This document shows, piece after piece, positions 3,997-29,905 of a stretch of 35,762 nt of DNA. Each line of letters starts with the position of its first letter. Within the stretch, counting starts at the first letter, position 1. The notes under the pieces are model-generated. The model worked only from the letters and a program-made list of their open reading frames with translations, was not told the origin of the DNA and searched no databases. Origin of the DNA: Acidimicrobiia bacterium (lineage in GTDB: Bacteria > Actinomycetota > Acidimicrobiia > Spongiisociales > UBA11373). Made by a program: the position numbers and the translations under genes. The stretch is taken from positions 1 through 35,762 of the forward strand of contig JBBDMM010000002.1 of assembly GCA_040878325.1 (NCBI GenBank), in the 5' to 3' direction.

Positions 3997-5292
3997 TCAG
4001 TCGGACATCGACTCCATGTAGTCGCGCACCTCGGGCATGGCCGTCATCTTCTCGTAGAAGAAGTTGTTGACGATGTTGAGCAGGGCATCGCGCGCCTGTT
4101 CGGCCGCTGCCGAATCGACCCCGCCGTCGCGCACACCGTCGCGCACCGCCAGGAGTTGAGCGACGATCGCCTCCTCCTCTACCCCTTCGAGTGACCGGAC
4201 CACATCGACGATCGTGCGGTCCACCTGGTCGAGGACGGCTCTGTGGTCGACGGTGGAGTCCGGCCCGGACGCCTCCTCAATCGTCCGCACCACGGCGTAG
4301 ACCTGATAGAGGGCCGTGGTGGGCTCGTCGAATATCTCCCGGAGAAAGGCCGCTTCCAGATAGTGCCCGCTCATTCGAAACACGTTGTACATGCGCTTGG
4401 CGGCCTTGCCGATATTGGGATGGTCGCGGGCGAGGTACTTCCGCACTTCCTTCTCCAGGGAATCAACGTACTCGTCGAGGGCGTCGGCCGAGACGTGCTG
4501 GGCCAGCTTGCTGAACAGCGGCACCTCCTCGGCGTTCAGGTAAACCTCCTGGAAGTAGGGGTCGAGGTATCCGTCGAGGGGCGTGATCGACCCGTCGGGC
4601 GCCTCCCAGGTCACGTCGAGCATGTTGGAGGCGTTGGCGAGTTGCTTGCGCACCGGATCGGCGACAACCCAATCGAGCTTGCACCATCCGGGGTTCTCCG
4701 CCACCTCGGCCCAGCGGATCGTCACTTCCTTGCCGTCGGAATCCTCGACGACGAACTCGCCCGCTGCGATCTCGTCGCCCGACCAAGCAATGGGGCTGCC
4801 CGCCCGCAGTTGGGACCCGCCACGGATCACATCGACCGGGTATTGGCCGAACTTGGCCTCGATGAAGCGGTAGGTGTCCCCCTCCATCTTGTCGATCACC
4901 TTCTTGCGAAGCACTTCGGCGGTCCGGCGGCAGGCGTCGACGCGAGTGGCGGCCTTGATGTTCACCCGCTCGAAGTAGTCGCAGTCACCGGGATATGCCT
5001 GGATCTTGGACTGGGCGGCTGAACCGGAGAGGGCGAGCGCCGTCTCGACATCGTCCTCGTCCGGGATCTCGACCAGCGCACCGACCGAGCGGAAGAAGGC
5101 CAGGTCGTCAGGGCTGAAGTCGAGCATGACCATCCGATGGCCAAAGACACCGGTGCGGTGGTCGAGTGTGATCTCGCTCTGGCCGCTGCCCACCTCCATC
5201 GCCTTCATCCAGCGATCGGCTTCGGCGGCGTCCAGTTCCAACCCAGCCCGCGCCGCGGACTCGATTATGCGGTCAAGGTCACTATTAGTCAT
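3997..5292 (-). CDS. Conserved hypothetical protein with a nucleotidyltransferase-like motif
   Basis: 431 residues from the ATG at 5292; an in-frame extension to 5325 looks unlike coding sequence. I do not recognise the family by name. Residues 90-105 read Gly-Ser, eleven residues, then Asp-Cys-Asp (PGDCDYFERVNI). This fits the Pol-beta nucleotidyltransferase superfamily pattern hG[GS]x(9-13)Dh[DE]h. A possible third acidic residue lies in the segment FVVEDSDGKEVTIRW. The C-terminal 200 residues look helical and acidic. No signal peptide or membrane segment. The stop codon directly abuts the 91-bp palindrome. The motif is seen; the nucleotidyltransferase reading is inference. Confidence 0.7.
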   Translation of the reverse strand: MTNSDLDRIIESAARAGLELDAAEADRWMKAMEVGSGQSEITLDHRTGVFGHRMVMLDFSPDDLAFFRSVGALVEIPDEDDVETALALSGSAAQSKIQAYPGDCDYFERVNIKAATRVDACRRTAEVLRKKVIDKMEGDTYRFIEAKFGQYPVDVIRGGSQLRAGSPIAWSGDEIAAGEFVVEDSDGKEVTIRWAEVAENPGWCKLDWVVADPVRKQLANASNMLDVTWEAPDGSITPLDGYLDPYFQEVYLNAEEVPLFSKLAQHVSADALDEYVDSLEKEVRKYLARDHPNIGKAAKRMYNVFRMSGHYLEAAFLREIFDEPTTALYQVYAVVRTIEEASGPDSTVDHRAVLDQVDRTIVDVVRSLEGVEEEAIVAQLLAVRDGVRDGGVDSAAAEQARDALLNIVNNFFYEKMTAMPEVRDYMESMSD

Positions 5293-6463: not shown

Positions 6464-7840
6464 TCACTCGCCCTCCGATTCGGCTGTCCGCGCCCTTCGT
6501 TCAGAGTAGCCAGCGATCTCCTTCTGGGCAGAACGCTCAACCGCGAGCGCACCGGGGGCGACATCCTTGGTGATCACCGAGCCGGCACCGGTGATCGAGT
6601 CGTCCCCCAACTCGATCGGAGCCACCAGCATCGTGTCGGATCCGACGAACACCCGGCTGCCGATAACCGTCCGGTGCTTGCGAAAGCCGTCGAAGTTGCA
6701 GGTCACGGTCCCGGCGCCGATGTTGGAGTTCTCACCGATCGTCGCATCGCCGATGTAGGAGAGGTGGGGCACCTTGCTGCCGGCGCCGATCTCCGACGCC
6801 TTGATCTCGACGAACGAACCCGCCTTCGAGCCGGTGTGAAGGATGGTGCCGGGCCGCAGAGTCGCGTAGGGGCCCACATCGACGTCGTCGCCCACCTGGG
6901 CGCCTCGAAGCACCGAGTACCACACCCGCGCCCCCCGGCCGACCGTGGTGTCAAGCAAGTAGGCATCAGGGCCGATCTGCGAGTCGGCTCCGATCGAGGT
7001 CGCCCCCTCGAGGTGGACGCCGGGATAGATCCGCGCCCCGGGCTGCAGGGTCACTGACTCGTCGATGTAGACCCGATCCGGGTCCTGCATCCACACCCCC
7101 TGCCGCATCCACTCCGCGTTGATGCGACGGCGCATCACCGCGTCGACATTGGCCAGCTGGTCGTGCGAGTTCACCCCGAGCGTCTCCTCGTGATCCACCT
7201 CCACGGTCTCCACCGGGCCGACCGCGGCGAGCATGCCCACCACATCGGTCAGGTAATACTCATTCTGGCGGTTTCCGGCGTCCAGCCGGCCGAGCGACTC
7301 TCCCAGGAGACGACCGCCAAATACGTAGGTCGACACCGCCACCTCGTCGATCCGGGCCGTCGCCGGGTCGGCGTCGCGCTCCTCGACGATCGCCACCACT
7401 GCCCCATCCTTGCGCAGCACCCGCCCGTACCCGGTGGGGTCTGGCATCCGGGTGGTAACCATCGTGCAAGGAGAACCTGGCCCGTGAGCCTCGAGCAGGG
7501 TGCGCAGCGATTCGGCGGTCACCAGGGGGCTGTCGCCGGGGACAACCAGGACGGTGTCCTCGTTGGTATCGCCCATGGCTCCGAACGCCACCTGAGCGGC
7601 GTGGCCCGTACCCAACTGCTGCTCTTGGACAACCGACCTGACGCCGTCGGGAAGGACCGCAACCACTGCCTCCGCCCCGTGGCCGACGACGACGGTGATG
7701 TCCTCGGCTCCGGCTCGGGTGACCGCGTCGATCACCCATGAGATGATCGGACGGCCGGCGACCAGGTGGAGCACCTTGGGCATGTCAGACCGCATCCGGG
7801 TGCCCTTCCCCGCCGCGAGGATCATCGCCCGCACCGCCAT
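6464..7840 (-). CDS. glmU: Bifunctional GlmU: glucosamine-1-P acetyltransferase / GlcNAc-1-P uridylyltransferase
   Basis: Makes UDP-N-acetylglucosamine for peptidoglycan. The N-terminal pyrophosphorylase domain opens with ILAAGKGTRMRSDMPKVLH and contains QLGTGHAAQ and VPGDSPLV. The C-terminal half is a left-handed beta-helix acetyltransferase with hexapeptide repeats (IGADSQIGPDAYL, GENSNIGAGTVTCNFDG). 458 residues. The open frame runs on to 7903, but that part lies over tRNA-Gln. The ATG at 7840, with GGAGG ten bases upstream, gives MAVRAMILAAGKG and is chosen. Confidence 0.96.
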   Translation of the reverse strand: MAVRAMILAAGKGTRMRSDMPKVLHLVAGRPIISWVIDAVTRAGAEDITVVVGHGAEAVVAVLPDGVRSVVQEQQLGTGHAAQVAFGAMGDTNEDTVLVVPGDSPLVTAESLRTLLEAHGPGSPCTMVTTRMPDPTGYGRVLRKDGAVVAIVEERDADPATARIDEVAVSTYVFGGRLLGESLGRLDAGNRQNEYYLTDVVGMLAAVGPVETVEVDHEETLGVNSHDQLANVDAVMRRRINAEWMRQGVWMQDPDRVYIDESVTLQPGARIYPGVHLEGATSIGADSQIGPDAYLLDTTVGRGARVWYSVLRGAQVGDDVDVGPYATLRPGTILHTGSKAGSFVEIKASEIGAGSKVPHLSYIGDATIGENSNIGAGTVTCNFDGFRKHRTVIGSRVFVGSDTMLVAPIELGDDSITGAGSVITKDVAPGALAVERSAQKEIAGYSERRARTAESEGE

Positions 7841-7864
7841 GCCGACATCACCTCCGAAAGTGGG

Positions 7865-7936
7865 CTGGGGGGACAGGGCTCGAACCCATTCCTTGGGGAC
7901 CAAAACCCCACGTGCTGCCGGTTACACCACCCCCCA
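7865..7936 (-). tRNA. tRNA-Gln (UUG anticodon)
   Basis: Full cloverleaf on the minus strand: acceptor TGGGGGG/CCCCCCA, D-arm GTGT...GCAC, anticodon stem TGGGG/CCCCA with loop TTTTGGT (anticodon TTG), T-arm with TTCGAGC, discriminator G. 72 nt, no encoded full CCA. It sits just before glmU, as I recall for mycobacteria, and is the last copy of a repeat of about 102 bp. Confidence 0.93.
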
Positions 7937-7972
7937 CCAGAACGCGTCGTATGGGATCGCCGGGAGTTTACC

Positions 7973-8038
7973 GCTGGGGGTGAACTCAACTCTTGGGGAC
8001 CGCCAAGCCCATGGGTGCTGCCGGTTACACCACCCCCC
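7973..8038 (-). pseudogene. tRNA-Gln-like repeat copy A
   Basis: Begins with the same 5' stretch as tRNA-Gln (TGGGGGGTGGTGTAACCGG...), so the acceptor 5' strand and D-arm are intact. The anticodon arm is replaced by CTTGG-CGGTCC-CCAAG, the variable loop is lost, and the T-loop is changed (AGTTGAGTTC). It cannot form a normal cloverleaf. Confidence 0.6.
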
Positions 8039-8075
8039 AAAAAGGGAATTCCCCCCTTGGGCCGCGGGAGTGTAC

Positions 8076-8142
8076 CGCCGGGGTGACTCGAACCCTTGGG
8101 GACCGCCAAGCCCATGGGTGCTGCCGGTTACACCACCCCCCA
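8076..8142 (-). pseudogene. tRNA-Gln-like repeat copy B
   Basis: Same as copy A but with GGTTCGAGTC kept in the T-arm region, followed by CACCCC. The anticodon segment is TGGGCTTGGCGGTCCCCA, one base too long for a standard arm. It starts 104 bp upstream of copy A. Confidence 0.6.
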
Positions 8143-8177
8143 CCAGAACGCGTCCTATGGGATCGCCGAGAGTTTAC

Positions 8178-8243
8178 CGCCGGGGTGACTCGAACCCTTG
8201 GAGACCGCCAAGACCATGGTGCTGCCGGTCACACCACCCCCCA
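8178..8243 (-). pseudogene. tRNA-Gln-like repeat copy C
   Basis: The D-arm has one change (GTGTGACC). The segment CTTGG-CGGTCT-CCAAG keeps the alternative stem of copies A and B, while the tRNA-type anticodon stem is further broken. GGTTCGAGTC is retained. It starts 101 bp upstream of copy B. Confidence 0.6.
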
Positions 8244-8282
8244 ATAGGGAGAAAGAGGAGTGTAAGCCAACGGCCTCTCGCC

Positions 8283-8320
8283 GATAGCCACAGCCACAGC
8301 CACAGCCACAGCCACAGCCC
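8283..8320. repeat. Hexanucleotide array (CCACAG)n
   Basis: About five tandem CCACAG units plus partial ones, starting 17 bp after the ispE stop codon. Same unit as in the 5313-5462 region. Confidence 0.9.
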
Positions 8321-8336
8321 AAAGGTCCATCGACCT

Positions 8337-9218
8337 TCAGGCGACCGCGCTCCAAGGCGGTGGCGGGAGTCCTCCGCCTGGGTTGCCGTTCCAGCCTCGG
8401 TCCACCGGTACGGCTGCCAGTGTTGCCCGGGCACCACGCACCTCGGACGCGGCGTGGGTCGCCTCCTCCCGATCGTGGAAGAACGCGAACAGCGAAGGCC
8501 CGCTTCCCGACATGGCCACCGGACGGCCCCACACCCGACCAAGGTCGGAGATCCAGTCGGCGAGCTCGGGGCGGAGGTTCATGGCGGCGGGGGTCAGGTC
8601 GTTGACGAGCGGGCCGTACTCCCGCAACGAGGGTGGGAGATCGCGTCCCGCCACCTCCAGGCCCTCGGGACCATCCAGCCGATCCCACCGTCGGTAGACC
8701 GCGGCGGTCGACAGCTCGAACGGTGGGACCGCGATCGCCAGGGCGAAATCGGTGGACATGGGCACCTCCCCCAGCACCTCTCCGTAACCCTCGATCCACA
8801 TGCGGCCGCCGGTGAGACAGAAGGGGACGTCGCTTCCCAGGGAGGGGCCGAGGGCTGTCACCGCCTCCCGGGTCGCATCCAGCATTCCGCCGGCCGCGAC
8901 CAACGCGGCGGCGGCGTCGGCGCTGCCACCCCCGAAACCGGAGGCGACGGGGATCCGCTTGGTCAGCCTCACCCGCAAAGGAAACCGGGTCGACAGCCGG
9001 ACCGCCTCCACCGCCCGCCACGCCAGGTTGTTCTCATCGGCGGGAACGTCCTCGTCGGAGTCCACCTCGAATTCGTCTTCGTCGCCGCGAGACACCTCGA
9101 CCACATCGGACAGGTCGATCGACTGGGCAAGCGACCGCAATTCGTGCAATCCGGATCGGTCGACGGGACGAACCTGCAACGACAGGTTGACCTTGGCGAA
9201 GGCGGTGATCTCGGTCAC
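8337..9218 (-). CDS. ispE: 4-diphosphocytidyl-2-C-methyl-D-erythritol kinase
   Basis: GHMP kinase of the MEP isoprenoid pathway. The N-terminus has FAKVNLSL with the catalytic-type Lys9. The ATP-binding motif PVASGFGGGSADAAAAL is at residues 90-106, GSDVPF follows, and motif 3 reads MSGSGPSLFAFF. 293 residues, normal. Its start overlaps the ksgA stop by four bases. The C-terminus (GNPGGGLPPPPWSAVA) is Gly/Pro-rich and atypical, just ahead of repeat sequence. Confidence 0.94.
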   Translation of the reverse strand: MTEITAFAKVNLSLQVRPVDRSGLHELRSLAQSIDLSDVVEVSRGDEDEFEVDSDEDVPADENNLAWRAVEAVRLSTRFPLRVRLTKRIPVASGFGGGSADAAAALVAAGGMLDATREAVTALGPSLGSDVPFCLTGGRMWIEGYGEVLGEVPMSTDFALAIAVPPFELSTAAVYRRWDRLDGPEGLEVAGRDLPPSLREYGPLVNDLTPAAMNLRPELADWISDLGRVWGRPVAMSGSGPSLFAFFHDREEATHAASEVRGARATLAAVPVDRGWNGNPGGGLPPPPWSAVA

Positions 9219-28003: not shown

Positions 28004-28023
28004 GGCCGAGCTTTGCTCGGCCC
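28003..28023 (+). terminator. Perfect GCCGAGC palindrome at the uppP stop
   Basis: GGGCCGAGC-TTT-GCTCGGCCC, 9-bp stem, first base shared with the uppP stop codon. Member of the GCCGAGC palindrome family. Confidence 0.8.
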
Positions 28024-28052
28024 GCAATTCGCAATTCGCAATTCGCAATTCG
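28023..28052. repeat. Heptanucleotide array (CGCAATT)4
   Basis: Four near-perfect CGCAATT units start at the last base of the palindrome, as at 3409. Confidence 0.92.
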
Positions 28053-29779: not shown

Positions 29780-29905
29780 CTGGCGATTGGCGATTAGCGA
29801 TTGGCAAGATCTGCGAACGCGTGCGATACGGGTCAGGATGATTCAGGCGGAAGGCGGAAGGCGGAAGGCCACCTCCTCTGGACTGGAGACTGGAGACTGG
29901 AGACT
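29779..29905. repeat. Three different heptanucleotide arrays in one gap
   Basis: GGCGATT units (29779-29806), GGCGGAA units (about 29846-29870) and GACTGGA units (29879-29905) lie in series between two genes. They have different sequences but the same 7-bp period. Nothing else is visible in the gap. Confidence 0.9.

Follow-up and report, generated by a model that had tools for sequence, protein, structure and literature searches.

Tandem, 3'-truncated copies of a tRNA-Gln gene between ispE and glmU in an Acidimicrobiia bacterium

Introduction

The tyrT locus of Escherichia coli harbors tandem repeats of ~100-180 bp, associated with the rtT RNA, each of which includes a piece of the neighboring tRNA gene. 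These repeats are located downstream of the tRNA, whose 3' end they carry.

Partial tRNA genes are also common in prokaryotes as products of integrated elements (van der Gulik et al. 2023, PMC9897764). Another known case (Rogers et al. 2012, PMC3399842) is the Bacillus cereus pseudo-tRNA tRNA-Other, a single copy located beside a genomic island and for which phenotypes have been tested.

Here, we describe a tandem array of tRNA-Gln-derived units upstream of glmU in an Acidimicrobiia genome (G000), within a window corresponding to the whole stretch of DNA analyzed (35,762 nucleotides). Comparison with relatives points to at least two separate origins of such truncated upstream copies. We propose that recurrent tandem duplication left dead tRNA bodies together with probably live tandem promoters for tRNA-Gln and glmU, a reading to which we give reasonable but incomplete confidence. 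Origin and layout are supported by the sequence and its comparison with relatives, while promoter activity and transcript processing are what we infer from them. We found no report of such an array in the literature searched, an absence that proves little.

Results

Layout of the array

The array (7912-8243) was detected by TRF with a period of 103, 3.2 copies, 82% matches and a score of 472, a value that rules out a chance repeat. It lies on the minus strand between two genes that we take to be ispE and glmU on the basis of their domain make-up and gene order (Table 1). Direct reading resolved four copies, named A to D, whose first nucleotides fall at 8243, 8142, 8039 and 7936, corresponding to start-to-start spacings of 101, 103 and 103. 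The first-pass annotation had described four tandem tRNA-Gln-derived copies, located ahead of tRNA-Gln and glmU, with the intact one last and with the acceptor 5' strand and D-arm common to all; TRF and direct reading bear out this description, and three of the four proposed starts are exact, the start of copy C (8038) being one base off. The variable loop, reported as lost from A, B and C, was read as absent (five bases) in A and B.

Table 1. Coordinates of the array units, the -10-like boxes and the flanking genes in the window
Feature	Position	Strand	Description
ispE (GHMP kinase)	8337..9218	-	directly upstream of the array; ORF and Pfam
Proposed unit 0	8337..8379	-	ispE 3' end (..GGLPPPPWSAVA stop); equivalent of tRNA nt 1 at 8354
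-10-like TACACT ahead of copy A	8259..8264	-	
Copy A	8187..8243	-	tRNA-Gln nt 1 to T-loop; altered anticodon loop; without variable loop and 3' acceptor strand
-10-like TAAACT ahead of copy B	8171..8176	-	
Copy B	8085..8142	-	truncated tRNA-Gln copy
-10-like TACACT ahead of copy C	8069..8074	-	
Copy C	7982..8039	-	truncated tRNA-Gln copy
-10-like TAAACT ahead of copy D	7965..7970	-	
Copy D	7865..7936	-	intact tRNA-Gln, anticodon TTG; Rfam 51.6 bits, cut-off 29
glmU	6464..7840	-	directly downstream of the array; ORF and Pfam hexapeptide and NTP transferase domains

Copies A-C span tRNA nt 1 to ~57, including the D-arm, a changed anticodon region and the greater part of the T-loop. They contain no 3' acceptor strand, and the T-loop part runs straight into the -10-like box of the next copy, continuing as CACCCCGGCGGTAAACTC or close variants, a stretch that resembles the tRNA promoter of relatives (GACCCCGGCGGTACACTG in G005). 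Since A-C run into promoter-like sequence, the repeated unit consists of a promoter and the 5' three-quarters of a tRNA.

The only tRNA called in the array was copy D, a tRNA-Gln(UUG) (ARAGORN; Rfam), and covariance-model scoring of each copy, as suggested in the first-pass annotation, gave no tRNA match for A-C in Rfam even at E <= 10. When the region 7700-8500 was compared with 4227 Rfam families by cmscan at E <= 10, only the tRNA (copy D) and two chance-level matches elsewhere were obtained. Both the CCCCCC strand and the TTTTGG loop expected of a functional tRNA are missing from A-C, whose bodies cannot be tRNAs.

An assembly artefact is unlikely because the copies are non-identical, the array is in the interior of a 173-kb contig and similar arrays occur in other genomes. 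A dispersed element was discarded as well, the unit being found nowhere else in the genome, where the sole other match was tRNA-Gln(CTG) on another contig.

Several other features of the window were recorded. A hexamer, AGCCAC, is repeated 5.7 times at 8286-8319, between ispE and copy A (TRF). Arrays of period 7 account for 15 of the 33 TRF rows of the window (including 1-55, 1509-1538, 1567-1596, 28023-28052, 29845-29869 and 29881-29905), which is unusual as multiples of 3 are expected. At 4000-5265 on the minus strand, downstream of prs, a 422-aa protein displays no Pfam match at E <= 1e-5.

The -10-like boxes and the spacers

Each of the four copies is preceded by a TANNNT motif 21 to 35 bases ahead of nt 1, successively TACACT, TAAACT, TACACT and TAAACT. 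Across the five genomes with tandem copies, such a motif precedes seven of the eight truncated copies, the exception being that of G054, preceded by TAACCC; among 95 intact tRNA-Gln genes, 89 likewise had a TANNNT <= 45 nt ahead, compared with a shuffle mean of 21.6. In G130, the unit measures only 67 bp and its -10-like box is directly behind the variable loop. A sigma-70 two-hexamer scan of the array returned 0 promoters (0.1 in shuffles), owing to the lack of a recognisable -35. The boxes may persist merely as a result of recent duplications.

Two of the spacers had been noticed to be alike, and A-B indeed matches C-D at 43 of 49 columns. The B-C spacer diverges from A-B downstream of the -10-like box, with CACCCCGGCGGTAMACTC retained, and the alignment of the spacer preceding A with B-C was no better than that of shuffles. 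The likeness of A-B and C-D could reflect an array history of period two.

Arrays in relatives and number of origins

Among the 138 genomes of the order, 96 contained a match to a pattern for the 5' half of tRNA-Gln. Tandem copies within ~110 bp occur in five of the 138, at the same locus, with four copies in G000, three in G049 and two each in G054, G087 and G130; two genomes in which the pattern occurs twice were excluded from this count, the copies being 1.3 kb apart in G132 and on different contigs in G117. When each tRNA was aligned locally with the 900 bases that precede it (93 loci), six genomes reached z > 5, namely these five and G029. A second test, searching nt 37-60 in the 300 bases upstream, added remnants in G035 and G091; seven of 12 genomes of a clade of family f3 were at p <= 0.05 versus shuffles, compared with two of the 79 other genomes at z > 3 (G025 and G089), which we take as chance matches. 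The thirteenth member of the clade, G015, has no copy by eye.

At larger scale, a two-copy pattern applied to 395 genomes of the class retrieved only G000 and G087; it was too strict, as G049, G054 and G130 escaped it. A single-arm pattern applied to 396 genomes of the phylum, of which 100 matched at all, revealed no other pairs less than ~300 bp apart.

A glmU protein tree (62 rows) placed G049, G054, G087 and G130, along with the decayed remnants of G029, G035 and G091, in a single 13-row clade (clade K, family f3; support 100/100). This led us to drop five independent origins, which the presence of arrays in five genera had made us suspect. G000 belongs to family f1, far from clade K and beside the single-copy G005 and G001, the latter of the same genus as G000. 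As G000 is distant from clade K and its near relatives are single-copy, the tree argues for at least two separate origins. Copy number differs between the sister genomes G035 and G049, which indicates fast turnover.

Inspection by eye revealed further repeats at this locus. The junction in G054 falls at a GGGTT common to the tRNA and its flank. In G095 (locus L125), a ~20-bp direct repeat at about -60 to -1 before tRNA-Gln, spanning the spacer and the first tRNA bases, looks like a minor duplication akin to those of the arrays. Long near-perfect inverted repeats, with ~20 bp per arm, are present at the ispE 3' end in G130 (L084) and G015 (L153), which are neighbors in the glmU tree.

Uneven change within the truncated copies

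Retention was counted on one copy from each of the five genomes against that genome's own tRNA. The positions kept amounted to 120/125 for nt 1-25, 40/55 for nt 26-36 and 33/35 for nt 37-43, with Fisher p-values of 1.8e-5 (nt 1-25 versus 26-36) and 0.012 (second contrast) that are too small because the rows of clade K share history. The unevenness in G000 is the same as that in clade K and arose independently, and each of the five genomes has insertions in the region of the anticodon loop. An intact TTTTGR anticodon loop is present in none of the eight truncated copies versus 94 of 96 intact tRNAs, and GCACC follows the D-arm in seven of the eight truncated copies versus 0 of 96 intact tRNAs. 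With the additional C, the D-arm hairpin becomes longer in A-C, G049 and G130, but not clearly in G087 and G054. All copies retain TGGGGGG, the truncated ones without its partner. Taken from the sequences, the retained -10-like box and 5' 25 nt, along with the lost anticodon loop, are hints of something beyond uniform decay that differ from the one put forward in the first-pass annotation.

The CTTGG/CCAAG hairpin

The first-pass annotation reported a CTTGG...CCAAG stem in place of the anticodon arm in A, B and C, which is correct, and interpreted its retention as an argument against simple decay, which is not supported. Predicted stem pairing was low: 0.001-0.009 for the ~102-base units, 0.002-0.051 for a read-through transcript of 399 bases and, when only the tRNA-like parts were folded, 0.002-0.19, the value of 0.19 being that of A alone. 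Pairwise identities between A, B and C are 66, 62 and 66 in about 70 columns, and given this similarity the chance of zero changes across the ten stem columns is 0.16-0.37; in copies that are nearly identical, an unchanged hairpin carries no meaning. The stem is invariant among A-C, so that no covariation signal is possible, and a perfect 5-bp stem appeared in 383, 785 and 460 of 5000 shuffles of the regions. Copies in G049, G054, G087 and G130 contain neither CTTGG nor CCAAG, and the 3' half of the stem is simply inherited from the tRNA. On the basis of pairing, shuffles and absence in other lineages, we rejected the stem as a conserved element, and the hairpin is probably not meaningful. A hairpin common to near-identical repeats should thus not be mistaken for evidence of selection.

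The IspE tail as a possible fifth unit

The ispE stop codon is located inside tRNA-Gln in G005, G007 and G027 (loci L034, L038 and L046), three of the 82 placed. In G005 and G007, ispE ends in ..GGTLPPPPWGVV and its stop codon corresponds to nt 13-15 of tRNA-Gln, so that a single stretch serves as ispE coding sequence, promoter and tRNA 5' end. In G000, ispE ends in ..GGLPPPPWSAVA, 400 bases before the tRNA. Over 56 ungapped columns, its tail aligns with the G005 stretch that doubles as promoter and tRNA, with a score of 37 (shuffle mean 15.6, with 0/500 as high). This match is partly expected as both are ispE; the argument rests on position. The equivalent of tRNA nt 1, at 8354, is 111 bases ahead of copy A, near the repeat period. 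From this, the IspE C-terminus looks like the oldest, decayed fifth unit of the array. In G011, the ispE tail is still TGGGGGGTGGAGTAG and lies 82 bases ahead of its tRNA, which may represent the same separation at an earlier step.

Discussion

We propose that the array formed by repeated local tandem duplication of a module comprising the promoter and the 5' three-quarters of tRNA-Gln. A duplication with its 3' breakpoint inside the tRNA would leave 3'-truncated copies upstream and the intact copy last, beside glmU; such a breakpoint would account for the truncation, the order, the spacing and the intact last copy with no further assumptions. If the ispE frame initially ran through the promoter into the tRNA, the first duplication would have separated ispE from the tRNA, and the oldest unit would have been left behind, and kept, because it encodes the IspE C-terminus. 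Each truncated copy most likely adds one extra promoter. Tandem starts would then feed a tRNA-Gln-glmU transcript whose long leader would be cut off at the tRNA 5' end; the earlier suggestion that A-C may be co-transcribed with tRNA-Gln and glmU is plausible.

The main rival is that the copies are pure debris, recurrently produced by tandem duplication where short repeats abound, and drifting without function until deleted. We regard this as possible, albeit rather doubtful. The fast turnover seen between the sisters G035 and G049, the decayed remnants of G029, G035 and G091, the detection of tandem copies by pattern in so few genomes of the order (5/138) and their absence from the same-genus G001 all fit debris, but decay is uneven, with nt 1-25 far better kept than nt 26-36 (a contrast whose p-value is affected by kinship in clade K), and -10-like boxes are retained ahead of seven of the eight copies. 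That arrays unrelated to each other lost the anticodon loop in parallel suggests that a truncated tRNA may do harm or be put to use. In a stronger version, the array of anticodon-less, promoter-bearing 5' fragments would be under selection, the broken anticodon loop and the C after the D-arm giving each fragment its own hairpin and keeping it from capturing the 3' acceptor strand of the intact tRNA, thereby tuning tRNA-Gln and glmU output; we consider this improbable.

A regulatory or decoy RNA, in which free 5' acceptor strands compete for the sole 3' strand and cause misfolding, or in which the copies act as small RNAs, is a slightly more remote prospect. TGGGGGG is kept without its partner in truncated copies, the anticodon loop and GCACC changes are parallel between lineages, the D-arm hairpin is made longer by GCACC in A-C, G049 and G130, and the predicted acceptor pairing of the intact tRNA drops to 0-0.011 in all five genomes when an upstream copy is included. 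However, the promoter leader without any copy already gave 0.003 (G000) and 0.033 (G054), which makes the folding model an unfair judge of tRNA folding, and a copy restored to unmutated tRNA nt 1-58 gave the same near-zero pairing, so that no benefit of the altered bases is demonstrated; in addition, the hairpins of G087 and G054 are not clearly stronger than those of their own tRNAs. As folding gave no distinction between actual and unmutated copies, a self-locking hairpin was rejected as a proven function. Finally, the copies could be scars left by an element that integrated within the tRNA gene, integration being documented as the main source of prokaryotic tRNA gene fragments (PMC9897764), but here the fragments are 5' parts, ~45 nt apart, separated by promoter sequence and no foreign DNA, and the two phage-type integrases of the genome are encoded on C12 and C18, with none on this contig. 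An attachment-site scar is accordingly disfavored and appears very improbable.

Under recurrent duplication with probably live promoters, the reading we prefer, the locus illustrates how tandem duplication can multiply, and set apart, a tRNA gene that overlaps its neighbor and its promoter. The outcome is fixed, the broken copies lying upstream and the intact copy last.

Among known systems, the tyrT repeats with the rtT RNA appear to be the nearest in kind, both being tRNA-derived tandem repeats that adjoin their parent tRNA. In contrast to tyrT, the repeats described here lie upstream and join a promoter to the 5' three-quarters of a tRNA, and apart from tRNA no Rfam family exceeds its cut-off. 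Like the fragments presented in PMC9897764, one published example of which is also Gln-TTG, our array places partial copies beside an intact tRNA; it differs from them in having no element, no integrase on the contig, and tandem copies with promoter sequence in between. The B. cereus tRNA-Other (PMC3399842) is likewise tRNA-like and non-translating and may sit within a larger RNA, whereas our copies are in tandem; by analogy, it is a functional precedent for tRNA-like bodies of this kind.
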